36,826 bases of DNA from Mycobacterium sp. (lineage in GTDB: Bacteria; Actinomycetota; Actinomycetes; Mycobacteriales; Mycobacteriaceae). Each line of letters starts with the position of its first letter. Position 1 is the first letter of the stretch. The DNA is taken from assembly GCA_020438865.1 (NCBI GenBank), contig JAGQTU010000023.1, positions 13,788 through 50,613 on the forward strand, given 5' to 3'. This document shows positions 8,489 to 36,826 of the stretch, piece after piece. The position numbers and the translations under genes were made by a program. The notes beneath the pieces were generated by a model that saw nothing but the letters and a program-made list of their open reading frames with translations, was not told the DNA's origin and ran no database searches.

Positions 8489-9776
<1,288 letters not shown>

Positions 9777-9790
<14 letters not shown>

Positions 9791-18172: not shown

Positions 18173-19666
18173 GTGTCATTGGAAGAGCACAAGCGTCGGG
18201 AGCGGGCCCACGCGATCGGGTTGTTCCGCTATCAGTTGATCTGCCCTGCACTGGAGGCGGGGTTGTCGACCAAGCAGCGCGGCAGACTGGTCCGCGAGAT
18301 CGCCGAGCGCCGCCATATCGACCCGTTCGGCACCCAGGTGCAGGTGGCGCGGGCGACCTTGGATCGCTGGATCCGCCGTTACCGGGCTGGCGGCTTCGAG
18401 GCACTGGTCCCTGAGCCGCGGCGGTTGGCCACCCGCACCGATGAGCAGGTGTTGGAGCTGGCCGCCTCGCTGAAACGCGAGAACCCGGCCCGCACCGCCG
18501 CCCAGGTGGCCCGGATCCTGCGCACCGCGACCGGGTGGGCACCCTCAGAGTCGACCCTGCTGCGCCACTTCCACCGCAGCGAACTGATGGGCCCGGCCAC
18601 CGGCGCGGCAGGTGAGGTGTTCGGGCGGTTCGAAGCCCCCGACCCGAATGAACTGTGGGTCGGCGATGCCCTGCACGGCCCGCGGGTCGGGGACCGCAAA
18701 ACCTACCTCTTCGCGTTCCTCGACGACCATTCTCGGTTGGTGGTCGGGCACCGCTTCGGGTTCGCCGAAGACACCGTGCGCCTGGCGGCGGCGTTGAAGC
18801 CGGCGTTGGCTGCTCGCGGAGTTCCCGCCTCGATCTATGTCGACAACGGGTCCGCGTTCGTCGATGCGTGGTTGCTGCGGGCGTGCGCGAAACTCGGGAT
18901 CCGGCTGGTGCATTCCGCGCCCGGTCGCCCGCAGGGCCGCGGCAAGATCGAACGGTTCTTCCGCACCGTGCGTGAACAGTTCCTCGTCGAGGTCACCGAC
19001 ACCAGCAGCGAGGACCTCGCCGCGGCCGGGGTGGATCACCGCGGGGCGTTGTTGGAGCTCAACCGGCTGTTCATGGCCTGGGTCGAGACCGAATACCATC
19101 GCCGCACCCACTCCGAGACCGAAGCGCCGCCGCTGGCTCGGTGGGAGGACGGCTGGGATCGGCTCGGCGGGCTGCCGGCGTTGCCGACTGCTGCGGATTT
19201 GACTGAGGCGTTCTTGTGGTCGGAGTTCCGCACGGTGACCAAAACCGCCACGGTCTCGCTGCATGCCAACACCTACCGGGTCGACCCGGCCCTGGCCGGG
19301 CGCCGGGTGGAGTTGGTGTTCTCCCCGTTCGATCTGGAAACGATCGAGGTCCGCTACCGGGATCAGAGTTTCGGCGCCGCGATCGCTCACACCATCACCC
19401 GCCATGCCCATCCGAAAGCCCGGCCCGAGACCGTTGACTCAGGACCTGCGCCGGCGGTGACGGGGATCGACTATCTGGCGTTGACTGCCGCTGCCCATCA
19501 TGAGCAGCTGCGCCAGGATGAACGTATCGGCTATCACGCCCTCTACGGCCCTCGCACTGACCGCACTATCGACGCCCCTGGCGACCATGCTCAGATTCCT
19601 GGCCAGCTCTCCATCACCGACCTCGACCCCAGCAACGCTGCTCATGAAGATGGGGTGTCGGCATGA
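18173..19666 (+). CDS. DDE transposase (rve integrase core, TniA/MuA-like)
   Basis: A 497-residue transposase. The N-terminal third holds helix-turn-helix DNA-binding domains (LDRWIRRYRAGGFEALVP, then a second HTH around residues 85-130). The catalytic RNase H-like core has Asp in WVGDALHG (about 162), Asp in YVDNGSAF (about 223) and Glu in RGKIERFF (about 260), the DDE triad. A Mu/TniA-type beta-barrel follows (VSLHANTYRVDPALAGRRVEL, about 364-384, span). GAGGAGGACAC precedes the GTG start at 18173. Its TGA overlaps the ATG of the ATPase gene, so the two are made together. It should cut and join the transposon ends described above. Confidence 0.92.
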   Translation: MSLEEHKRRERAHAIGLFRYQLICPALEAGLSTKQRGRLVREIAERRHIDPFGTQVQVARATLDRWIRRYRAGGFEALVPEPRRLATRTDEQVLELAASLKRENPARTAAQVARILRTATGWAPSESTLLRHFHRSELMGPATGAAGEVFGRFEAPDPNELWVGDALHGPRVGDRKTYLFAFLDDHSRLVVGHRFGFAEDTVRLAAALKPALAARGVPASIYVDNGSAFVDAWLLRACAKLGIRLVHSAPGRPQGRGKIERFFRTVREQFLVEVTDTSSEDLAAAGVDHRGALLELNRLFMAWVETEYHRRTHSETEAPPLARWEDGWDRLGGLPALPTAADLTEAFLWSEFRTVTKTATVSLHANTYRVDPALAGRRVELVFSPFDLETIEVRYRDQSFGAAIAHTITRHAHPKARPETVDSGPAPAVTGIDYLALTAAAHHEQLRQDERIGYHALYGPRTDRTIDAPGDHAQIPGQLSITDLDPSNAAHEDGVSA

Positions 19667-20478
19667 GTATTGAACGGCTGCAATCGCATTGGGGTTTCTC
19701 CCGGATGCCGTTCGGGCGGAATCTAGCTCCGTCGATGCTGCACCGCCACCCCGGCCACAGCGAAGCGATCGCCCGCATCGGCTGGTGTGTCAATCAGTGC
19801 GCGATCGGGGTCATCACCGGTGAAGTCGGCGCCGGCAAAACCGTGGCCATCCGCGCCGCCGCGACCGCCCTGGACCCCGCCCGGCACGTCATCATCTACC
19901 TTGCCAACCCCACCATCGGAGTCCGCGGCATGCTCACCCACATCGTGGCCGCCCTCGGACACACCCCGGTCTTTCACACCGCCCGCCTCGCACCCCAGGC
20001 CGCGGACGCCCTGGCCGCTGAACACGCCGAACGCGGCCGCAACCCCGTGCTCGTCGTCGATGAAGCCCATCTGCTCGACAACCATCAGCTCGAAGCGATC
20101 CGATTATTGACCAATCACGACATGGACTCCGGGTCACCGTTCGCCGTCGTGCTGGTCGGCCAACCCACCCTGCGGCACCGGCTACGCCTCGGTGTCCTTG
20201 CCGCGTTGGATCAGCGCATCGCCGTGCGCTACACCCTGCCCGGCATGAGTCCAGCTGACACCGCCGACTACATCAGCCATCACACCAAGATCGCCGGCCG
20301 CTCCGACACCCTGTTCGCCGAGGATGCCGTCACCCTGATTCACAACGCCTCACGCGGACACCCACGAGCGGTCAACAACCTCGCCTTGCACGCGCTGACT
20401 GCCGCGTTCGCTGCCGGTCATTCCATCGTCGGGGAGAAAGCTGCCCGCATCGCCATCAGCGAAACAGCCTCAGACTGA
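19663..20478 (+). CDS. Transposon AAA ATPase (TniB/TnsC/ExeA-like)
   Basis: A 271-residue AAA+ ATPase. Walker A is GEVGAGKT (about residues 44-51), Walker B is VLVVDEAH (about 128-135), sensor and arginine-finger regions follow, and HASRGHPRAVNNLALHAL-like C-terminal helices resemble ExeA/TnsC proteins. Such ATPases activate a partner DDE transposase and pick target DNA, often giving target immunity. ATG 19663 overlaps the transposase TGA (ATGA). Annotation pipelines often call these ExeA secretion proteins; the context makes a transposition role far more likely. Confidence 0.9.
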   Translation: MSIERLQSHWGFSRMPFGRNLAPSMLHRHPGHSEAIARIGWCVNQCAIGVITGEVGAGKTVAIRAAATALDPARHVIIYLANPTIGVRGMLTHIVAALGHTPVFHTARLAPQAADALAAEHAERGRNPVLVVDEAHLLDNHQLEAIRLLTNHDMDSGSPFAVVLVGQPTLRHRLRLGVLAALDQRIAVRYTLPGMSPADTADYISHHTKIAGRSDTLFAEDAVTLIHNASRGHPRAVNNLALHALTAAFAAGHSIVGEKAARIAISETASD

Positions 20479-24465: not shown

Positions 24466-27291
24466 TTAGAGTTCGAGGCCACCGACGTCGCGCCCGCGGG
24501 AGCGTGACCGTCCGGTGCTGCGCTCCACTCCGGCGCGGAAACGTTCGTAGGCCTGGTGGAGGCTCTGTTGGGCGCGGGTGTGTTCGCGCCAGGCGGCTCG
24601 CCAGGTGCCGCGGCGTTGCTCGTGGCGGTCGAGGACCTCGCCGACTATGTCAGGAAGGTGTTCGCGGGCGGTGTGTTCGGCTTCGGCATGCATCGTGCGG
24701 GGACGATCGTCGTTGGCCAGAATCATCTGAAGAGCTTGCGCGGCAGCGTGTTTGGTGCCGCGCCTCGCCACATGCATACCGATGTGGGGGCCGCTGTGTT
24801 CGTGGTCGGCTTCGCCGTCGAATCGGGTGTAGAGGTAGGCGTGGTTGGCCTCGCGGCCGCGGCTGAGCCCGACGTAGGCCTGGGTGCGGGAAGCGTTGTC
24901 GCCGAGCACGGTGTGGGCGGTGTCGACGGTGACGCCCTGGGCGGCATGCACGGTTACGGCGTATCCGAGGTGGACGTACTGGCGCAGGTAATCGCCGTCG
25001 AACAGAACGCGGGCTTTGTCCGTGAGCCGTTCAGCAGCGATCCGGTTGGTCTTTTCGTCGACGCCGGCCACCCGCCACCGGTTGCCATTGCGCACCTGAT
25101 CCACCGCCTGGCCCTCACGGTGGTGGGGGCCGGGGTGCACGGTGAGGGTGGCGTCGTTGTCGCGGCTGACGATGATGTCGCCGACCCGCACCGTCTGGTC
25201 GCGAGCCACCTGCGCAGCGGGCCCCTCGGTGGTGAGGGTGTCGTGGAGGCGCTGGTTGAGGGCATCAGCGATGTCCCGGGTATCGCAGACCAGCAGGGTC
25301 TTCTTTCCGGCGGCGCGGTCATCGAGGTAGGCCCTCATCGCGTCGGCGGCCATGCTGACCTGATCGCCGGTGTGCAGACGGTCGTGACTGCGGTACCAGC
25401 CGACCGCTCGGCGTAACCGGTTGCCGCGCCCGTTGCGGATCGCTAGCGAGGCGTCGCGCTCGGCCGGATCGCGCATGCGCCACACCTGCGACAGACGCTG
25501 GGTCCAGGGCAGCTCGGTGCACAGTTGGTCGAACATGCCGCCGCGGGCCTTGACCGGGGCAAGCTGGTAGGGGTCACCGACGAGCACAGCCTTCACCCTG
25601 GCGGCGGTGGTGGTCTCCAGCAGCTGCCGCAGCTTGGGGGTGGCCACCATGGACGCTTCATCGACGACGACCACGGTGCGGTGATCGAGTTGCAGGGCGC
25701 CGGTGTCGAGCTGGTGCAGCGCTTTGTCGAGGGTCATCCCGTGGTCGCCGGCGCCGTCAGCCAGCGCTTGATCGACCGCCGTCCCGGTCGGAGCAAGGAC
25801 CAGCACCTCTTTGTGGACTCGGTGGGCGGCGGCGCGCAGGGCTTGCAGGGAGTGGGTTTTCCCGGCACCCGCGGGTGCAGACAATGGATTGACCAACCAC
25901 GGCGACATGCCGATCGCGGTCACCGCGCGCGCCTGATCCGGTGACAGCGCGGTCAGGTCGCTCGAGCGCACACCGAGGCGCGCACGCGCATCGGTGGCAC
26001 CGGCGGCCTCCAGGACGCGCATCTCCTCTTTGAGGATCGCGGTGAGGGTGTATTTCTCGTGTCCTTCGCGCTCATGTGCGGCGCGCGGTGCGCTCACCCG
26101 CAGACCAACGCGCGCGGCGAGGTCCTCGATGCGCGCCCGCACATCCCGCCCCTCACCAGGGGATTCGTCGTAAGGCATGACCGCACCGATCAGCTCAACG
26201 ACATCGGCGCGGGTGAACGCGGCCTTATCGATGCGCGCTAGCGCGGTAGCAATGCGCGCCCGCGGGAGGATGTGCGCTTGTGCGCGCCGATGGGCGCGCG
26301 CGGCGAAGTGCGCATCGCGGTCCAAGTCCAGACCGCGCGCATCAGCGCGCCACGTCGCTTTGAGTTCTTCCCAGGCGAGCTGCTCGGGCTTGGAGGGCCG
26401 CGTCGCTTTCTGCGCAGTTGCCAACTGCGCCGCGGTGGGTTCACCGTCGACGACGACAAGGTTGTCTTTGGCCCATTCCCGCAGTCGGGTCGACCGCTGC
26501 GACCACGCCTTGATGCTGGCCGGAGTGACGCCAGCGATCTCGGCCATGCCGGAATGCTCATCCACCGGCGCCCATTCGAAGCCGCGCTCGGCGTGCAGCA
26601 CGTGACGCAGGGTGGCTTGATAGATGATCCCGGCGGCCTTGGCTTCGTGATACAGCGACTTGGAGTCGATCGACACCAACCGGCCATCAGCACGGGCCTG
26701 GCGATTCGGCAGGATGACGTGGGTGTGCAGGTGCGGGTCCCCGCACCGGCTCGTCTCATGCTGATAGGCGATCGCCACCAGCCCGGGCAGCCGCTGCAAA
26801 TCCTTCATCCCCGTCACCCGGTTATGCACGCGGGTGTACCCGGCGTGCTCATGCAGGTAAGTCATCGCCGCTTCGACCGCTGTGACGTGGGCGTTCTGCA
26901 TCACCTTCTCTGACACGTCGTCGGTCAGCGACCGCAGCAGCGACACACTCTTGGGCGCGGCGAACGTCAAGTCGAAACCGTGCACCCCGCCGGTCCCGAA
27001 CGCCCGCCCCGCCTCCCCACTCGGCGTGACTCCGTCATCGAGCCAGCGCGCCGCAACCTCGGTGTCAGCAAACCCGCCGTCGAGGGCGGCCCCGTCCAAG
27101 CCGGTGGCCTCACCGACGACGTTCTTGTCCCCGACCACGACCCAGGTCGGGACGCGGGTGTCACCTTCGGAGTAGTACTCACCCAGACCGCCGCCGGCGG
27201 CTTGGCGGTCCATCGAGGCCTGGCGGGCCTGATTCGCGGTGTCGTTGTAGTAGCCGATGCTCCAGCGCGACAACCGCGAGATCGTCAGCAC
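24466..27291 (-). CDS. MobF/TrwC-type relaxase with TraI-like helicase domain
   Basis: A 941-residue conjugative relaxase, close in length to TrwC of R388 (966). The start is GTG 27291, giving VLTISRLSRWSIGYYNDTA, the conserved N-terminus with catalytic tyrosine candidates Tyr14 and Tyr15. The metal site is His187-x-His189-x-His191 (DPHLHTHVILPN). The helicase half has Walker A APAGAGKT (475-479 for GAGKT), VVVVDEAS as Walker B, and YAVTVHAAQGVTVD as motif V/VI. It should nick oriT, stay linked to the strand and unwind it for transfer. It converges with the Rv2083-like gene. No T4SS ATPase or coupling protein is near, so it likely relies on another element. Confidence 0.93.
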   Translation of the reverse strand: MLTISRLSRWSIGYYNDTANQARQASMDRQAAGGGLGEYYSEGDTRVPTWVVVGDKNVVGEATGLDGAALDGGFADTEVAARWLDDGVTPSGEAGRAFGTGGVHGFDLTFAAPKSVSLLRSLTDDVSEKVMQNAHVTAVEAAMTYLHEHAGYTRVHNRVTGMKDLQRLPGLVAIAYQHETSRCGDPHLHTHVILPNRQARADGRLVSIDSKSLYHEAKAAGIIYQATLRHVLHAERGFEWAPVDEHSGMAEIAGVTPASIKAWSQRSTRLREWAKDNLVVVDGEPTAAQLATAQKATRPSKPEQLAWEELKATWRADARGLDLDRDAHFAARAHRRAQAHILPRARIATALARIDKAAFTRADVVELIGAVMPYDESPGEGRDVRARIEDLAARVGLRVSAPRAAHEREGHEKYTLTAILKEEMRVLEAAGATDARARLGVRSSDLTALSPDQARAVTAIGMSPWLVNPLSAPAGAGKTHSLQALRAAAHRVHKEVLVLAPTGTAVDQALADGAGDHGMTLDKALHQLDTGALQLDHRTVVVVDEASMVATPKLRQLLETTTAARVKAVLVGDPYQLAPVKARGGMFDQLCTELPWTQRLSQVWRMRDPAERDASLAIRNGRGNRLRRAVGWYRSHDRLHTGDQVSMAADAMRAYLDDRAAGKKTLLVCDTRDIADALNQRLHDTLTTEGPAAQVARDQTVRVGDIIVSRDNDATLTVHPGPHHREGQAVDQVRNGNRWRVAGVDEKTNRIAAERLTDKARVLFDGDYLRQYVHLGYAVTVHAAQGVTVDTAHTVLGDNASRTQAYVGLSRGREANHAYLYTRFDGEADHEHSGPHIGMHVARRGTKHAAAQALQMILANDDRPRTMHAEAEHTAREHLPDIVGEVLDRHEQRRGTWRAAWREHTRAQQSLHQAYERFRAGVERSTGRSRSRGRDVGGLEL

Positions 27292-27329
27292 GGTCGCACC
27301 GCCATTAGGCCACCTCACCAAGCCGGACA

Positions 27330-27373
27330 GGCCGCCGCCAGGCGGCCGGGGTTCGGGCGCGCCAGCGCCCGAA
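27330..27373. other. Tandem hairpins upstream of the relaxase, candidate oriT
   Basis: Two perfect stem-loops lie side by side: GGCCGCC (27330-27336)/GGCGGCC (27341-27347), and TTCGGGCGC (27352-27360)/GCGCCCGAA (27365-27373). Both have the same loop GCCA. They start 39 bp upstream of the relaxase start, where MobF oriT sites with hairpins are often found. They could also act in the mRNA leader. Confidence 0.5.
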
Positions 27374-27875
27374 GCCGAGTATTGCATACCTTGTGCCAAT
27401 GTGCCGGTCTGTATTTGATTGGGAGCCAATGGGTTTGATGGTCAGCTTGGAAGCGATGGTAGTGGGCTATGGGCCATGAAGGGTTCGGATTCGGTAGGAG
27501 TGTTTGTAGTTGGCGTTGAGGAGTATTAATTGGGTTGCGGGACCTGGAGGCCTGTTGTTGAGGGAGGTGACGAACCGGGAGCCGACATATTGCGGGCAGC
27601 TAGGACGAGCTGTCTCAGCGTCGCCGGCACGACCGCGTCGACGCACAAATTATGGGGTGGTGGAGCATGGCTACGGTTGACCCTGCTGCGCCGTCAATAC
27701 GGGCGGTGCCAACCATCGTCGTAGTCAGACGCGAGCTAGTCTCTGACGGAGTGCCGCGGGAAGCTGAACGCTAGCTAACACGTCAAAGGACAAGCTGCCG
27801 CATTTTGCGAACCATGGCGGCGACACGCATGCATCATTCAACACTTGGATCGCGTTCCGATCTATCGTCGCGGTC
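27374..27875. other. Relaxase upstream region without genes
   Basis: About 500 bp with no supported gene on either strand. The part 27404-27540 is markedly AT-rich for this genome (for example GTATTTGATT, GAGTATTAATTGG), as often seen beside a transfer origin. The rest is ordinary composition. Confidence 0.45.
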
Positions 27876-30215: not shown

Positions 30216-30663
30216 GATCCAGTATCGCCCTGCTGCGGCTAATCGTGGTGTAGCCAGGCATCGCGGACACGTGCGTCGGTCGGACGGTGGTTACGCCTGA
30301 CGTTGATGGCGTAGCCAGCTGGTTGCGCGCTGAGCACCCCACGCATTGGCATCGTCGTCGCGGAACTCGTGGGCGCTCATTGCCTCGTCGTCCGCCAGGC
30401 CGCCACACGGGCAATGCACCTCCAACGTTGTCGCATCACATCAAGTCCCTGTTCAACGCCCAAAATCCACACACCTCTTGCACTCTGGGCCGGAAGATCG
30501 CCAATCAACTTAAAGTTGACGCACGCGGGTGGCGCTTGGGGCGAGAGCCGCCAAGCCGCCATTGAACCATTTCCCGTTTGTGCTGATGAGCGATTTCGGC
30601 CCAGATCGTGGTAACTTGCCGTTGACATTGACAACTGTGAGTTGACCGTCTGGAGGCCTTCAG
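30216..30663. other. Gene-free stretch before the recombinase trio
   Basis: About 450 bp without a supported gene. Near its end, GTTGACATTGACAAC (30621-30635) is a small imperfect inverted repeat, and GTTGAC recurs at 30641-30646. GGAGG at 30652-30656 is the ribosome-binding site of the recombinase gene. The repeats may be its operator or a recombinase-binding site. Confidence 0.4.
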
Positions 30664-31786
30664 TTGAGCGTTCCAGGTTCGGCGCACCTCGTTCTCGCCG
30701 CGGGCGTGGTCCATCTTGATGAACCGTCCGCGGTCTTTGAAGCGATGCTGTCGGGGTGGCGACGCCAGCAGAAGTCCCGGCTGCTTGCCGAGGCCACGAT
30801 CGAATCGCGATTGGCGTTCGTGCGACGGTTCGCTGCGTTCGCCGAGACGCATCCGTGGGATTGGACGGCCGGCGATGTCGAGGACTTCACGGCGGCTCTG
30901 ATGTCGGGAAACAACCGCAAGGCGCCCTCGACAATTCGCGGCTACCACATGACGCTGCGGTTGTTTTGTGACTACCTACTCGATGGCCGTTATGGCTGGA
31001 TCTCGCAGTGCGAGCAGCGGTTCGAAAGGATCCCGTCGCAGGTCTGCCATGACTTCAACACCGCGGCGCATCTGGTCGAATACGAGGGCAAGCCCGCCCG
31101 CCGGCCGTTCACCTACGACGAGGTGGAAACGTTGTTCGCGTTCCTTGCCGATCGAGTGGACATCATTGCGCGTTCGGGTCGCAAAGGCGCGTTGGCGGCG
31201 TTGCGCGACGCGCAGATGATCAAGACGGCCTACGCCTTCGGGTTACGCCGTCGAGAGCTGTGCTACCTCGACGTGGCCGACCTGCGTCCCAACCCGCGGA
31301 TGCCGGCGTGGGGAACGTTCGGCGCCGTCCACGTCCGGTATGCCAAGTCCAGCCGCGGCAGCGCCCCTCGGCGTCGCACGGTGCTGGCCGTTCCCGAGTT
31401 CGACTGGGTGATCGACGGACTGCGCCAATGGGTCGATCAAGCCCGGCCGCTTCTGAGTCCCGGCAGCCGTCAAGAGTTGTGGCTGACTGAGCGTCGGCAG
31501 CGGGTGGCGACCAAGCAAATGGACAAGCGATTCGCCTACTTGCGGGCGCAGGCCGGTCTGCCTCAAGACCTCACCCTGCACTGCCTGCGGCCACTCCTAT
31601 GTGACCCACCTGATCGAGTTCGGTTACCCGGAACGGTTCGTTACCGAGCAGGTCGGACATTCTTACGCCTCGACCACCGCGATTTACACCTCGGTGTCCA
31701 ACGACTTCAAGACCAAAACGTTGCAGGCGGCGCTGCGCCGCGTCTACGGATCCGCGACGACTGAAGGGAGCCAGGATGAGCACTAG
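30664..31786 (+). pseudogene. Tyrosine recombinase with one-base frameshift
   Basis: Start TTG 30664 follows GGAGG. The first frame codes residues 1-309 with a core-binding domain (RRQQKSRLLAEATIESRLAF) and catalytic Arg195 (AFGLRRREL). At 31591-31592 the sequence reads CGG-C-CAC where CGG-CAC is expected. Beyond it the next frame gives HSYVTHLIEFGYPERFVTEQ, then VGHSYASTTAIYTS, the missing His, GH and tyrosine motifs, ending at 31786. Without the extra C the protein would be 373 residues with the full R-HxxRH-H-Y set. Either it is a true inactivation, a sequencing error or, less likely, programmed frameshifting. It overlaps the XRE gene. Confidence 0.8.
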
Positions 31787-32108
31787 AACCGTCCTCCGGT
31801 GGAACCTGCGCCGCCTGATGGCCGAGAACGGCATGTTCGCCACCACCGACCTCGTCGCACCGCTGCACGAACGTGGCGTGGAGATCTCCCGACAGATGGT
31901 TCACCGGATCGCTACCAAGCCTCCACAGCGCATCAATCTCGACCTGCTGGCGGCGCTGTGCGACATCCTGGCGTGCACCCCCAACGATCTGTTCGAGCTC
32001 GCCCAAGAACAGATCCGCGAGGCACCCGCAGTCAACGACAGCGGGTCCGGGATCGGCGACCTGCGACCGATCCGCGCCAGGATCCGCCGCCCCGGCGACA
32101 ACGAGTGA
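31776..32108 (+). CDS. XRE-type HTH protein in the recombinase trio
   Basis: A 110-residue protein. Residues 8-68 form an XRE/HTH_26-like DNA-binding domain (LRRLMAENGMFATTDLVAPL, then GVEISRQMVHRIATKPPQRINLDLLAALCDIL). The tail is Arg/Pro-rich. ATG 31776 lies inside the last codons of the recombinase, and its TGA overlaps the GTG of the next gene, so all three are coupled. Size and place resemble the small TnpC-type accessory gene of Tn554-like transposons. A role in DNA binding at the recombination site or in self-control is likely. Confidence 0.78.
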   Translation: MSTRTVLRWNLRRLMAENGMFATTDLVAPLHERGVEISRQMVHRIATKPPQRINLDLLAALCDILACTPNDLFELAQEQIREAPAVNDSGSGIGDLRPIRARIRRPGDNE

Positions 32109-33547
32109 ATCGACGAGCCTGCTGGGAGTGCGCAAGCACCAACTACCTGACCCGGCTGACGCATGGGTGTCGCATTTGTGTCGGCTGCCGTCGCAGGCGG
32201 CACTACCACCCCGAAACCTGTCCGGGCTGCCATGTCGTGCGGCCGCTGGCATGGCGACGCGGCGAGACGGTGGTGTGCGCGTCATGTGCCGGTGTCGAGT
32301 CGATCTTCGGGTGCCGCGAATGCGGGCGCGAAGACCATCCCTACGGGCACAATCGGTGCGCGCGATGCTTCCTGCGTGAACGCCTCAGCGACTTGCTCGC
32401 CGACCCGACGACCGGCCAGATTCACCGCCAATTGCGGCCGGTCTTCGACGAGCTGGTGAACTCCGAACGCCCACAAACAGGGCTGTGGTGGCTGCGCAAG
32501 AAACCTGGCATCGGCCCCCAACTTCTCGGGCAGATGGCTTGCGGCGCGGTCGACATCAGCCACGACACCTTCCGCACCCTGCCCTCGGATCGTGCCCACG
32601 ACTACCTTCGCAGTCTTCTCGTCGCGGTCGGTGTCCTGGAACCGTTCGACATCCGCATCGAACGGATGCTGCCCTGGATCGAAGACATCGTCGCCGAACT
32701 GCCCGCCGAGGACGCCGCCTTGATTCGCCGATTCGCGCACTGGCAGGTGCTGCGAGGAATGCGCAAGGCCGCCCGTGAAGACCGGTTGACCAAGTCGATG
32801 GCCGATGCGTGTCGACGGCGCATCCGCGTCGCGATCGAGTTCGTGGGCTTCCTCGCCCGCCATGACGCCAGTGCGGCGACCGCGACCCAGGATCTGTTGG
32901 AGCGCTACCAAGAACACGTCGGCAGGATGCTGAACCATGAGTACGCCTTCATCGTCTGGCTACGCCAATCCCGCACCAACACCAAACTCCGAGTCCCCGA
33001 CGTCCCGCAGTCACCGCCCTCAGTAACCGTCTCCGATACGCAGCGGTGGGCGGCCGTAGAGCGTCTGCTGCACGACACGACCGTGCGCCGTTATACACGA
33101 ATTGCGGGCCTGCTCACATTGCTGTTCGCACAGCCGCTTTCACGCATCGTCGCCATGCGCACCAGTCAGGTCGCGATCACCGACGACCGGGCCGTGCACG
33201 TCACCTTCAGCAAGATTCCAGTCCAGATGCCGCCGCTCCTCGACGACCTCATCCGTGAGCACCTCGAGCACCGCGGCAAAAGCCTCTACGCCTCACGCGG
33301 AACCGGCTGGCTGTTCCGCGGCGGCAACCCTGCAGCGCACCTCGCCACCGAGAACATCCGCTCCCAGCTCGTCGCCATCGGGATCAAGCCCTACGAGAAC
33401 CGCAAAGCGACCCTCTTCCACCTCTCCGGCGACATGCCCGCACCAGTCCTGGCCGAACTGCTCGGGCTCACCGACAAGAACGCCGCCGACTGGGCCAGAC
33501 TTGCTGCCCGCGACTGGACCGCCTACATCGCCGAAAGAGCCCGCTGA
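32105..33547 (+). CDS. Cys-rich zinc-ribbon protein with degenerate recombinase-like C-terminus
   Basis: A 480-residue protein starting GTG 32105 (GTGA overlap with the XRE stop). Residues 1-90 hold 13 cysteines in CxxC pairs (6/9, 22/25/28, 39/42, 58/61, 70/73, 85/88), suggesting two or three zinc ribbons. A helical middle (100-300) resembles a core-binding domain. Residues 315-480 follow the tyrosine recombinase plan (LLTLLFAQPLSRIVAMR ... HLSGDMPAPVLAELLGLT ... DWTAYIAERAR), but the HxxR and LGH motifs are altered to FHLS and LLGLT, so catalysis through the usual set is doubtful. It probably assists the first recombinase, like TnpB of Tn554. Confidence 0.75.
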   Translation: MNRRACWECASTNYLTRLTHGCRICVGCRRRRHYHPETCPGCHVVRPLAWRRGETVVCASCAGVESIFGCRECGREDHPYGHNRCARCFLRERLSDLLADPTTGQIHRQLRPVFDELVNSERPQTGLWWLRKKPGIGPQLLGQMACGAVDISHDTFRTLPSDRAHDYLRSLLVAVGVLEPFDIRIERMLPWIEDIVAELPAEDAALIRRFAHWQVLRGMRKAAREDRLTKSMADACRRRIRVAIEFVGFLARHDASAATATQDLLERYQEHVGRMLNHEYAFIVWLRQSRTNTKLRVPDVPQSPPSVTVSDTQRWAAVERLLHDTTVRRYTRIAGLLTLLFAQPLSRIVAMRTSQVAITDDRAVHVTFSKIPVQMPPLLDDLIREHLEHRGKSLYASRGTGWLFRGGNPAAHLATENIRSQLVAIGIKPYENRKATLFHLSGDMPAPVLAELLGLTDKNAADWARLAARDWTAYIAERAR

Positions 33548-33616: not shown

Positions 33617-34495
33617 TCACTGCGTGGCGTCGACGCTGTCGAGCCTGCACTTCTCCACCCAAGTCGCCAGAAGGCTTAAAGCGGCGAGCCTCTCGGCGGC
33701 CTCCTGCGCCGATAGCTGCGTCCGGTCGTGGGTGGTTGGGTTTCGGATCGCAGCATGGACGCCCGTCGAGAAACTCAACAAGCCGCGGTTCATCGATATG
33801 ACGGTCTGGTCTTGATTACCTCCGAGCCAGCGCAATCGCGGAGCACCAGCCTTGGGTGGACTCTGCGAGAAGGCCTGCGTGAAAACGTCCTTGTCGTCGA
33901 GGTCAGTCCTTCCGGTGAGCTGGCGGACGTGGTCGATGACAGCGCCCACGGCGGATGACACCGCTTCGCGGTACAACTCGATGCGCCATTGGCCTCGAGC
34001 CGCGCCCCAGACCAAAGGGTGCATATCCTCGATGCTGATGTCGCCGGTGACATCGACACGGTCGACCATCGATTCAAGGATGCCGATGGTGTGTTCGGAC
34101 GCGGCGAGGATGTCGTCCGGCTGTACGAGCGAGTGCGGCTGGGTGACAGTTATCCACATCTCGAACGGGTTAACCGGACCGCCGAATCCCGGGCGGGATA
34201 TCCGCACACCGGTGATGTCGGGAAGATGCGCAATACGGCCAGCTGTCCGTGAGCAGCGGCCCTTCGCCGCCACCCATTCGTCGTCTGACACATCAGATCT
34301 CGGTGTCACGGCGGGCAGACTGGCGTAGCCGGCAAGTACCTCGTCAGGCAGGTCGGGACCAGCCATCGCCCGAAGCCCAGCGGTGAACTGACACAGCTCG
34401 AGCAGGGCGCTGAACGCCCGCTCAAAGTCGCGCACCTGTTCCGCTGCTCGCCGCAGGAACCGTGGATTCAACTTCAGATCGTCATTGTCACCCAT
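33617..34495 (-). CDS. HEPN-domain protein, TIGR02391 (Ymh)-like
   Basis: A 292-residue protein. The C-terminal third has the pattern of the TIGR02391/Ymh family: GLLSFSTGVHAAIRNPTTHD, then a helix AAERLAALSLLATWVEK. Arg251 and His256 form the R-x4-H motif of HEPN ribonucleases. A middle region (about 105-165) contains a beta-type segment and WGAARGQW. HEPN proteins are common toxins in abortive infection and toxin-antitoxin systems. ATG 34495 lies 9 bp after the stop of the DUF1508 gene upstream, so the two form an operon. The gene converges with the recombinase trio. Confidence 0.75.
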   Translation of the reverse strand: MGDNDDLKLNPRFLRRAAEQVRDFERAFSALLELCQFTAGLRAMAGPDLPDEVLAGYASLPAVTPRSDVSDDEWVAAKGRCSRTAGRIAHLPDITGVRISRPGFGGPVNPFEMWITVTQPHSLVQPDDILAASEHTIGILESMVDRVDVTGDISIEDMHPLVWGAARGQWRIELYREAVSSAVGAVIDHVRQLTGRTDLDDKDVFTQAFSQSPPKAGAPRLRWLGGNQDQTVISMNRGLLSFSTGVHAAIRNPTTHDRTQLSAQEAAERLAALSLLATWVEKCRLDSVDATQ

Positions 34496-34504
34496 GTACG
34501 CAGC

Positions 34505-34828
34505 TCAGGGCCCAGTCGCATACGGCGCGTTCGCCCGCACGTTCTCGGCGGCGCGCTCCGCGTTGTAAGAGCTGGCGAACGACTCACCTGAGGCGGCAAC
34601 TTTGTCACTCGACCGCCATGCGCGCCACCGCCAGCTTCCGCCGACGTCCTGGAATGTCTCATACCGTGCTGCGGACCCGCCGGACTTGAAGGCATTTGCC
34701 GCTCTGGTGGCGTTGGCTTGCGATTCGAAGCCTTCGCCTGCCCAGGCGACCATCTCATGGTTGTCGCCGTACAAGGCCCACGTGGGATAGCGGTTGGCGT
34801 CACCAGTGACCGTGACCTTGAAGTACAT
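34505..34828 (-). CDS. DUF1508 (YegP-like) small protein
   Basis: A 107-residue protein with two copies of the DUF1508 repeat. The first has YFKVTVTGDANRYPTWALYG, then MVAWAGEGFESQANATRAANAF; the second has YETFQDVGGSWRWRAWRSSD, then VAASGESFASSYNAERAAENV. Each repeat is a strand-turn-strand with SGE/AGE and an Ala-rich helix. AGGAGGATCCG directly precedes ATG 34828. DUF1508 proteins are small and widespread with unclear function. It is the first gene of an operon with the HEPN protein and may be its antidote or trigger (inference). Confidence 0.8.
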   Translation of the reverse strand: MYFKVTVTGDANRYPTWALYGDNHEMVAWAGEGFESQANATRAANAFKSGGSAARYETFQDVGGSWRWRAWRSSDKVAASGESFASSYNAERAAENVRANAPYATGP

Positions 34829-35330
34829 CGGATCCTCCTGCCTGTTGACCACAGGTACGCAGTCAGCTCGCAACAGTCTTATCAAGAGACACCGACAGCC
34901 AGCGCTTGCGACGCAGCGAACAAACTCGCCCTCGAACAGACCTCTGATTTGGGCATTCACCCCACTCGGAATTCGACCCCTCTGCCAATAAGCACGATCA
35001 CTTAACGACGGACGATATCCGGATAAAGATCCGCGGCGCAGACACCCCGCGTCCCAAGGATTGCGAGACCGCGGATGCGAGGGGTTGCCCGCGAGACACC
35101 TCACGGACGTAGGGGGAAGAGTTCTCAACGCGGGAAACGGCGGTCCGAACACTGAGGTGGTGCACTCACTTTGCCGGCACGAATCGTCACGCGGATGCCC
35201 ATGGAATCTGCGCGCACGGCCTCGCCGATGATGGCGACGAACGGTCCTTCGATGCCATCGCCGACGCGATTTGCGAGAAGGCGAAAAGGGCCCGAAGACC
35301 AGCCGGCTGGACGCTGTGATTTCGTTGTGC
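34829..35330. other. Non-coding stretch, possible gene remnant
   Basis: About 500 bp. A plus-strand frame ending near 35321 (reading DDGDERSFDAIADAICEKAK) looks like the tail of a lost gene but has no start. CGGAT-AAAG-ATCCG near 35020-35035 is a small hairpin. No complete gene is supported. Confidence 0.35.
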
Positions 35331-36023
35331 CTAGCGAGCTAAGCGCGCGGGGCGGCCCGTCTTCTTGGTGGCGATCTTCGACTCTTTGGCGTCGCTATCG
35401 GTCTTGCGGTGGGCGGCGAGGAAGTCATCGACGATGTTCGCGCAGTCATTGTGAGTGATGGTGCGAAGCCCGGTCATTCGGGCGAAGGCGAGTGGTCCGA
35501 CGAGTTGGCAGAGCGCCAGTTCCCGGTCGAAGTCGTCGAGTTCGGCTTGTGCTCTCGGGCTGGTGAGTATGGCGTCAAATGGTTGACGGTACTGGTCAAC
35601 GACTCGGGCCCGTAGCGCCCCGGATGTGTGGCGCTCATCCGCTTCGTTAGTGGAGCCGGTGGGCCCCAATGAGAGCCACGCGAGTGTCGTGACATGCAGC
35701 GGTGCGTCGTTGAAGAGTGCGGCTTGGCGGCTGAGCAATTCGATCAGCTGCTCACGGAGGGGTCCGCTGGTCGGTGCCGGAGTGGTCACTTGCGGAAGTA
35801 GGCGTTCGAACGTGGCTGCCAGTAAATGCGACGAACTGTGGAAGTGGCGGTACAGCGTGGTTCGGGCCACTTTGGATGCTTTGGTGACGGCATCGATAGT
35901 GACCGCTTCCACCCCACCGGTGCTCAGTAGCGTTGCCGCAGCATCCAGCAGCCGGGTGCGTGACCGGATGCGCCGCGGGTCCACGTCATCGTCAGGGACT
36001 GGCGCTGACTGACTGTTGCTCAC
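35331..36023 (-). CDS. TetR-family transcriptional regulator
   Basis: A 230-residue protein. The N-terminal TetR DNA-binding domain is clear (RSRTRLLDAAATLLSTGG, then VTIDAVTKASKVARTTLYRH, about residues 20-68). A variable C-terminal ligand domain follows, and a Lys-rich tail (KESKIATKKTGRP). Start GTG 36023. It is divergent from a thioesterase gene with a 100-bp gap, so it most likely represses that gene and itself, with a fatty acyl, sterol or aromatic ligand. Confidence 0.88.
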   Translation of the reverse strand: MSNSQSAPVPDDDVDPRRIRSRTRLLDAAATLLSTGGVEAVTIDAVTKASKVARTTLYRHFHSSSHLLAATFERLLPQVTTPAPTSGPLREQLIELLSRQAALFNDAPLHVTTLAWLSLGPTGSTNEADERHTSGALRARVVDQYRQPFDAILTSPRAQAELDDFDRELALCQLVGPLAFARMTGLRTITHNDCANIVDDFLAAHRKTDSDAKESKIATKKTGRPARLAR

Positions 36024-36123
36024 TCATTCACCTCGGGCGGTCGATTTTCACGCGATGTTGTCCTGGCAGTCTAGCAGTGTGGTACTAACGGTAGCGCAGC
36101 GAAACCGATCGTATTGGGGGGTG
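36024..36123. promoter_or_regulatory. TetR-thioesterase divergent promoter region
   Basis: A 100-bp gap with a weak candidate promoter for the thioesterase: TTGTCC at 36058-36063 and TACTAA at 36083-36088, 19 bp apart. The region is expected to hold the TetR operator, but no good palindrome was found by eye. Confidence 0.35.
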
Positions 36124-36639
36124 ATGGTGCCCAAAAGCGTGTTGCCGCCGGAGCGGCTGCCCTCGCACACCACGACCTGCATGGGTTGCGGCCCGGACAA
36201 CCCTCACGGACTGCGGCTAGTGGTGCATCGCAGCGGCGACGCGGTGTACACCGATGTGAGGTTCGACGAGCGGCATATCGGGGCCCCGGGCCTGGCTCAC
36301 GGCGGGGCAGTGGCCGCCGCATGTGATGACGTCCTGGGCTTCACGTTGTGGATCGCCGGCACCCCGGCGGTGACCCGCACCCTGACGGTCGAATATTTGC
36401 GGCCGGTGCCGCTGCATCAGACCCACCGGATTACTGCCCACATCGTCTCTCGTGAAGGGCGGGCGCTGCATGTCACGGCGACAGGCACGGGTGAGGGTGG
36501 GATCGCCCGCTTCACCGCCAGTGCAGTGTTCATTGTCGTCAGCCCTGAGCACTTCGCCGCACACGGCGATGTCAGCGCTTTCGGCGATCTTCTGGAGCAG
36601 TTCTCGCGCCGCGGCGGTCTGGACCCGGGGCCGTCATGA
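36124..36639 (+). CDS. PaaI-type hotdog thioesterase
   Basis: A 171-residue hotdog-fold protein. MGCGPDNPHGLRL (about residues 20-32) and IGAPGLAHGGAVAAACDDVLG (about 52-72, span) are the classic pattern of PaaI/4HBT-type thioesterases, with the HGG turn and an acidic residue in the long helix. It should hydrolyse an acyl-CoA or similar thioester. ATG 36124 (or GTG 36121) is preferred to the in-frame 36016 start, which would lie over the TetR gene. Its TGA overlaps the ATG of the next regulator gene. It may clear acyl-CoA during lipid or sterol breakdown (inference from the KstR-like neighbour). Confidence 0.85.
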   Translation: MVPKSVLPPERLPSHTTTCMGCGPDNPHGLRLVVHRSGDAVYTDVRFDERHIGAPGLAHGGAVAAACDDVLGFTLWIAGTPAVTRTLTVEYLRPVPLHQTHRITAHIVSREGRALHVTATGTGEGGIARFTASAVFIVVSPEHFAAHGDVSAFGDLLEQFSRRGGLDPGPS

Positions 36640-36826
36640 CTTTCCCTCAGGCGCGCAGCCGCGGGAAAACCCTGCCTTCGGAAGCGAACTCGGTCGCTGC
36701 AGAGAAGCGGGCCGCTAACGCGTCGCGTTCACGCGCCTCCGCACGGCGCCGGGAAACGATTCTGGATGCAGCTTTGGCCGTGGCCGCGGCCGGTGGTTAC
36801 GAGGCGGTTCAGATGCGGACGGTTGC
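36636..36826 (+). CDS. KstR-like TetR regulator (5' part only)
   Basis: A gene cut by the window edge; 63 codons are visible. ATG 36636 overlaps the thioesterase TGA (ATGA). The segment RRRETILDAALAVAAAGGYE, then AVQMRTV, matches the start of the KstR DNA-binding domain (RRKRILDATMAIASKGGYEAVQMRAVA in M. tuberculosis, recalled). KstR represses cholesterol-catabolism genes. This copy has a longer Arg/Ala-rich N-terminus and sits in a different neighbourhood, so it is more likely a paralogue than KstR itself. Confidence 0.75.
   Translation, partial: MTFPQARSRGKTLPSEANSVAAEKRAANASRSRASARRRETILDAALAVAAAGGYEAVQMRTV

Follow-up and report, generated by a model that had tools for sequence, protein, structure and literature searches.

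Which kind of element is encoded by three overlapping genes for a tyrosine recombinase, a small XRE protein and a zinc-ribbon protein? We asked this of a 36,826-nucleotide stretch of Mycobacterium sp. DNA (contig JAGQTU010000023.1, positions 13,788 to 50,613; we call the whole stretch the window), in which the three open reading frames (ORF1, ORF2 and ORF3) form one operon. We consider it likely that actinobacteria harbor a large and apparently undescribed family of site-specific tyrosine-recombinase transposons with this trio as their transposition module, and that the clade found in the window inserts at a probable MOBF origin of transfer (oriT)/nic region. A first-pass annotation of the same DNA had proposed a Tn554-like layout and, possibly, integrating elements that use one active and one structural recombinase.

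The coordinates of the three genes and their Pfam matches confirm the overlapping arrangement seen in the first-pass annotation: ORF1 and ORF2 overlap at 31776/31786, and ORF2 and ORF3 at 32105/32108. In the window, ORF1 is broken into two frames (pieces a and b), which we searched separately, leaving the sequence uncorrected. Piece a matched Phage_int_SAM_4 above the family cut-off (Pfam, E 4.1e-7) and Phage_integrase slightly below it (E 5.9e-6; 26.6 bits, cut-off 27.1). Piece b, in which the catalytic-Tyr block is present, matched Phage_integrase below the cut-off (E 9.2e-5). We saw the frame break in no other assembly: the N-terminal part and the Tyr block lie in a single frame in 19 of 19 relative loci, which come from 12 distinct genomes (11 nearly identical and one at ~91% in ORF3). 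R196, K229, H307, R310, H333 and Y342 are all conserved in 8/8 ORF1 relatives, and ORF1 would be the sole catalytic recombinase of the trio. ORF2 matched HTH_26 (Pfam, E 2.8e-14).

What, then, is ORF3? No Pfam or NCBIfam family scored above its cut-off (top scores 13.8 and 12 bits), phmmer found no match to ORF3 among solved structures, and hhalign found none between ORF3 and ORF1. The predicted model of ORF3 has the core-binding and catalytic-domain fold of a tyrosine recombinase. When the catalytic positions were mapped by eye on an alignment, Trp replaced the catalytic Tyr and the box II His was missing. The recombinase outline with altered motifs that had been suspected is therefore upheld by the predicted fold and by these positions, and the 13 cysteines also stand: 13 Cys lie within the first 90 residues (counted by eye), 12 of them in six CxxC pairs, which do not vary across an 11-row alignment. 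ORF3 is predicted to be a dead recombinase carrying a zinc-ribbon head.

Of 72,556 plasmid records, 232 contain an ORF3 homologue, as do 96 of 297 same-genus genomes. A genome-contig scan gave 30 ORF3 loci, including Kineosporia, Kocuria, Leucobacter, Nesterenkonia and Nocardia, and found ORF3 100% identical in several named mycobacteria; a first viral_contigs scan for relatives found none. The homologous trios gathered in this way keep their three genes together. Both ORF1 and ORF2 lie upstream of 62/69 ORF3 frames, a count that includes duplicates and comes from hand-chosen loci; after de-duplication of these loci, 34 of 40 distinct ORF3s have both partners in at least one copy. Judged by gene neighbourhood, the linkage is far above chance.

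Two arrangements depart from the complete trio. A single contig (L065 and L139, the same judging by length) has an ORF3 that is ~71% identical, with no ORF1 or ORF2 upstream by profile search, and looks like a remnant. At L108 and L109, Tn554-like sets (a tyrosine recombinase, a protein of 736-750 residues and a DUF6262 protein) adjoin XRE-ORF3 pairs that lack ORF1; these sets may have landed inside the trio.

Does the trio move? Inside single genomes, near-identical copies have different flanks. The genome G229 carries a 5.7-kb element at three places, plus a fourth copy inside a longer duplicated stretch; G151 carries a ~4.4-kb element at three places and G202 a 4.1-kb element at two. The M. 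chubuense plasmid pMYCCH.01 (G275) has a 3.3-kb element at two places, in which the trio supplies the sole clear genes (ORFs by eye). Repeated trio copies are also present in G277 and G157, where the element ends are undefined because the copies lie within longer repeats (10 and 14.6 kb). A fixed chromosomal locus, which the first-pass annotation had named as evidence against its proposal, was not found, and we reject it: the copies sit at different places with different flanks. By this comparison of copies, the trio is a mobile transposon module. Together with the eight of eight ORF1 relatives that keep the catalytic residues and the predicted fold of ORF3, this mobility supports actinobacterial integrating elements with one active and one structural recombinase.

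A protein with zinc ribbons and without a catalytic Tyr could also be mainly a transcription regulator of the operon, leaving ORF1 alone to transpose the element; a Kocuria relative of ORF3 indeed bears the annotation Fis family regulator. We doubt this explanation. For a regulator, a recombinase fold of two domains would be a large scaffold, and ORF3 is inherited together with ORF1 and ORF2 in most of the frames counted above, including those of the 3.3-kb element that has no other clear gene. Moreover, the tfp protein of SE elements, which is recombinase-like and has no catalytic motif, is essential according to the available part of PMC10214605. We favor a structural role for ORF3, and we infer the roles of the proteins and the recombination chemistry as follows: ORF3 most likely occupies the core sites next to ORF1, reading the target or the ends, and the most likely task of the XRE protein ORF2 is to regulate the operon or to shape the DNA complex.

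We determined the ends of the element by comparing insertion sites, as the first-pass annotation had envisaged (Table 1). Eight genomes, including the window's own, match across the inner element end. In eight genomes without the trio, the sequence from window position 34991 lies directly behind CACACACCTCTTGCACTCCGGGGCC. Because these trio-free sites join the motif arm directly to base 34991, the inner right end is placed at 34990. The right-hand cargo is still present in the eight trio-free genomes, which may represent earlier or later states. The left junction is uncertain by ~5 bp, the letters there being common to flank and element. A further site (L092, in G094) has the same left arm and no trio, with a left flank that is similar by eye.

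Table 1. Positions of the trio, its element, its cargo and the surrounding host island in the window.
Feature	Position	Strand	Evidence
ORF1 piece a: core-binding domain and beginning of catalytic domain of tyrosine recombinase	30664-31590	+	Pfam/NCBIfam profiles
ORF1 piece b: catalytic-Tyr end, other frame	31601-31786	+	Phage_integrase match, relatives with intact copies
ORF2: XRE/HTH_26 protein, 110 aa	31776-32108	+	Pfam
ORF3: six-CxxC zinc-ribbon head and predicted tyrosine-recombinase fold without catalytic Tyr, 480 aa	32105-33547	+	
Left target arm, host side: CACACACCTCTTGCACT motif and variable spacer of host oriT-like site	30468-30492	+	
Element left end, with palindrome TCAACTT-A-AAGTTGA at 30505-30519	30493-30519	+	
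Right end of inner trio-bearing element, TTCGACCCCTCTGCCAATA	34972-34990	+	
Right half of oriT-like site, AGCACGATCACTTAACGACGGACG	34991-35014	+	
Cargo Hypoth_Ymh	33617-34495	-	TIGR02391-family gene annotated at same place in M. chubuense plasmid
Cargo DUF1508	34505-34828	-	YegP-family gene annotated at same place in M. chubuense plasmid
First 1.84 kb of ~12.6 kb further cargo (TetR, thioesterase-like, more in relatives)	34991-36826	+	
tRNA-Pro	8494-8568		
Island integrase beside tRNA-Pro	8489-9790		
TrwC-type (MOBF) relaxase of host island, outside element	24466-27429	-	

We wondered what the element recognizes. The core CACACCTCTTGCA is found left of the trio in 20 of 21 mycobacterial loci compared, in constant orientation; as exceptions, L065 has no core and at L059 the core lies ~2.7 kb further away. 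The junctions (20 distinct 45-base strings were collected) share one layout: CACACCTCTTGCAYT is followed by ~8 variable bases and then by G..., mostly GAAG(A/G)TCGC, and the flanks differ. The window clade would insert in one orientation, without a long target duplication; on its left would lie CACACCTCTTGCAYT and the spacer, on its right the right half of the probable oriT/nic region of MOBF conjugative plasmids and islands.

Relaxase genes lie close to these insertions. A 4.5-kb element stands alone between the arm and the relaxase start in G071 (start by eye), and ~4.2 kb separates the motif from the relaxase in G125. In Nocardia sp. NBC_01327, whose ORF3 is 44% identical, the same core motif precedes the trio, and an annotated mobF begins 88 bp past ORF3. 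In the M. gallinarum and M. chubuense plasmids, ~11.6-11.8 kb of trio and cargo separates the motif from the annotated mobF. The cargo between trio and mobF in M. gallinarum pJCM6399 (L002) includes an annotated alkylmercury lyase, arsM and ArsR/MerR-type regulators.

Empty sites give the same picture at larger scale. The pattern CACACACCTCTTGCAYTNDGG is present in 75 of 297 same-genus genomes, with 0 for the reversed control; these counts are lower bounds because the pattern overlooks arms ending CCGG. We surveyed 83 of the 96 pattern sites, duplicates included (the other 13 were 11 sites already known to be occupied and two at contig ends), and found 8 occupied and 75 empty. At 56 of the 75 empty sites, the relaxase N-terminal motif HKLxAGxGY begins at a distance of 105-142 bp, counted from where the DNA motif starts. 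In G102, G125 and G195, the protein with the HKLxAG motif matches TrwC in Pfam; elsewhere the motif alone was seen. The complement of the DNA motif, TGCAAGAGGTGTGTGG, resembles the F nic region TGCGTGGGGTGTGGTG, an oligonucleotide given in the available part of PMC5422253, and also the nic GTGGGGTGT|GG, listed with type F12 in the part of PMC7755788 at hand. Taken together, the distance to the relaxase motif at 56/75 sites and the likeness to F nic suggest that the target of the window clade is probably a MOBF oriT/nic region.

The recombinase might instead favor a regulatory or promoter site that happens to precede the relaxase gene. Nineteen of the 75 empty sites, which have no HKLxAGxGY motif within 450 bp, speak for such a site. 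We nevertheless think it unlikely. The motif is strongly conserved beside unrelated flanks, its complement has the likeness to the F and F12 nic sequences just described, and 17 of the 19 sites without a nearby relaxase motif fall by eye into two groups with other right halves, nine resembling CGACGGACGAAAT and eight TTTCGTCCGTACGAAAT. The 19 sites, among them L069, L078, L092 and L190, are perhaps the transfer origins of mobilizable islands.

The probable oriT target does not hold everywhere, and the loci outside mycobacteria slightly lower our confidence in the overall reading. Among eight non-mycobacterial loci scanned, the motif is present in two, both from Nocardia (L146 with a one-base variant), and absent from the Kineosporia, Kocuria, Leucobacter and Rhodococcus loci and from one Nocardia locus. 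Because only 2/8 of these loci have the motif, the target belongs to the clade and not to the whole family. A further candidate, that the target encodes THLLHSG of recombinase box II, was dropped, as the frames upstream do not read on into a recombinase (by eye).

Other clades have other targets, whose gene identities we assigned by eye. We examined five distinct insertions of elements from G229 and G202. Four of them (L033/L036, L034, L043 and L044) interrupt another tyrosine-recombinase gene at its catalytic-Tyr codon, and the element provides the target recombinase with a new C-terminus, ..NYQKLHQTGASPLVAC or ..KARELHQMGAFAQVAS. The target frame at L043 is only 74 aa, and no recombinase gene is hit at the fifth site, L035. 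The G151 elements (L040, L041 and L042) are inserted in three different nrdH genes, each time in the 3' part and with the common ending ..NGAILSSDATLVG. We tentatively raise the possibility of an actinobacterial transposon superfamily in which ORF3 is a swappable target selector: short heads would lead to the MOBF nic region, and longer zinc arrays to the catalytic-Tyr codon of recombinases or to nrdH. Such a superfamily would parasitize loci that define other mobile elements and would build composite cargo islands in oriT.

How far does the unit in the window extend? The contig stops at the window end (36826), and the right end of the unit lies further on. Nine of ten named near-identical loci share the element through the window end (6.4 kb) at 97.7-99.9%. 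The left match ends at the junction in four of these nine (L120, L123, L126 and L128) and ~200-240 bp further left in three (L121, L122 and L127); it continues through the compared stretch in the remaining two (L124 and L125). In G102, the shared unit measures ~17.2 kb; it starts at the motif arm and stops immediately short of the right half-site that precedes the relaxase. In other unit members the sequence past the right end differs, again resembling an oriT right half. Relaxase-mediated exchange was considered as the source of the changing left flanks and rejected: the spacer changes together with the flank, which puts the break at the edge of the element, and a 17.2-kb unit with both flanks changing explains them.

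The outer right end TACGACCCCTGCGCCAGTA is similar to the inner right end TTCGACCCCTCTGCCAATA, and the cargo occurs alone at such sites in L258 and L259. In relatives, the cargo ORFs encode TetR regulators and thioesterase-like, LLM oxidoreductase-like, P450-like and hydrolase-like proteins, as well as a 1040-aa transporter-like protein; these names were given by eye from the ORFs, except for one TetR from a profile match. The sequences suggest a composite unit in which the trio element is followed by a fossil right half-site, and this in turn by 12.6 kb of cargo with a second right end. Cargo would be gained when the left end of the element pairs with a second, more distant right end.

The window itself is mycobacterial chromosome with an island adjoining tRNA-Pro. 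No direct repeat of the tRNA-Pro region of at least 14 bases was found elsewhere in the window. The host island also contains a Mu/Tn7-like transposase (rve and Mu-transpos_C by Pfam) followed by an ATPase-like ORF (18173-20478).

If this reading is right, a widespread protein that is mostly annotated as hypothetical is explained as part of a transposon, and the motif offers a testable sequence mark for the probable MOBF transfer origin of mycobacterial plasmids and islands. The trio would also be a natural system in which an inactive relative of a recombinase may set the choice of target. Finally, insertion beside oriT bears on how cargo joins the conjugative elements of actinobacteria.

How does the trio compare with known systems? 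Tn554 has the gene order tnpA-tnpB-tnpC, and TnpC is a DUF6262 protein (PF19776), consistent with the Tn554-like sets found here. The first-pass annotation had drawn the parallel in size; the set is also alike in make-up and site-specificity. Like Tn554, which is treated with actinobacterial Tn554-like elements in the available part of Van Houdt 2012 (PMC3414803), the trio combines in one operon a short, ordinary tyrosine recombinase, a large protein of recombinase type and a small protein. It is site-specific, occurs in several copies per genome and makes no long target duplication when empty and occupied sites are compared; variable bases adjoin a conserved arm, a feature also described for Tn554 and SEs. 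These likenesses would suit a divergent Tn554 transposon with ORF3 as TnpB and ORF2 in place of TnpC, a reading that we find improbable. The small protein is XRE and not TnpC/DUF6262, with no match of ORF2 to PF19776 at E <= 1. TnpA and TnpB both have the RHRY motif, whereas ORF3 lacks the catalytic Tyr and carries a zinc-ribbon head. The gene order is short-small-large in the trio and short-long-DUF6262 in the Tn554-like sets. Those sets exist as separate elements in the same genus, and the ORF3 profile did not match their large protein in the four loci examined. Against three Famint36/41 plasmids, the ORF3 profile gave no match in two and a 51-residue match (E 5.5e-4) in the third. Simple membership of Tn554 was rejected on the missing PF19776 match, on the large Tn554-like protein that the ORF3 profile leaves unmatched and on the result for the Famint36/41 plasmids.

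The available part of PMC10214605 reports SEs from Gammaproteobacteria, with two catalytic recombinases, tfp and srap in an intA-tfp-intB-srap operon. The trio shares with them an operon protein that has a recombinase core-binding domain and no catalytic motif, as well as target specificity with variable bases adjoining a conserved arm (SEs themselves have a 6-base footprint and leave no empty donor site). Unlike SEs, it has one catalytic recombinase and an XRE gene in the middle, and does not follow the intA-tfp-intB-srap order. RIT elements, three consecutive tyrosine recombinases, and GInt elements, both as covered in the available parts of PMC3414803 and PMC10214605, likewise have adjacent genes with recombinase-type products, overlapping in RIT; unlike RIT, the trio has a single catalytic recombinase and XRE/HTH_26 as its middle gene. 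IME_oriT elements of streptococci have their own MobT-related relaxase and target MobT oriTs, according to the part of PMC7563843 at hand. Near-identical elements in different hosts and insertion at the probable oriT of a conjugative element recall them, but the 3.3-kb trio element shows no relaxase gene (ORFs by eye) and the target is linked to MobF-type relaxases. Tn554 and Actinobacteria are both mentioned in the available part of PMC8138268, and we found no description of the trio among the open-licence papers listed on Tn554-type trios, oriT insertion, MobF oriTs and inactive partners. Falling within the definition of none of the three, the family resembles Tn554, SE and IME_oriT elements.
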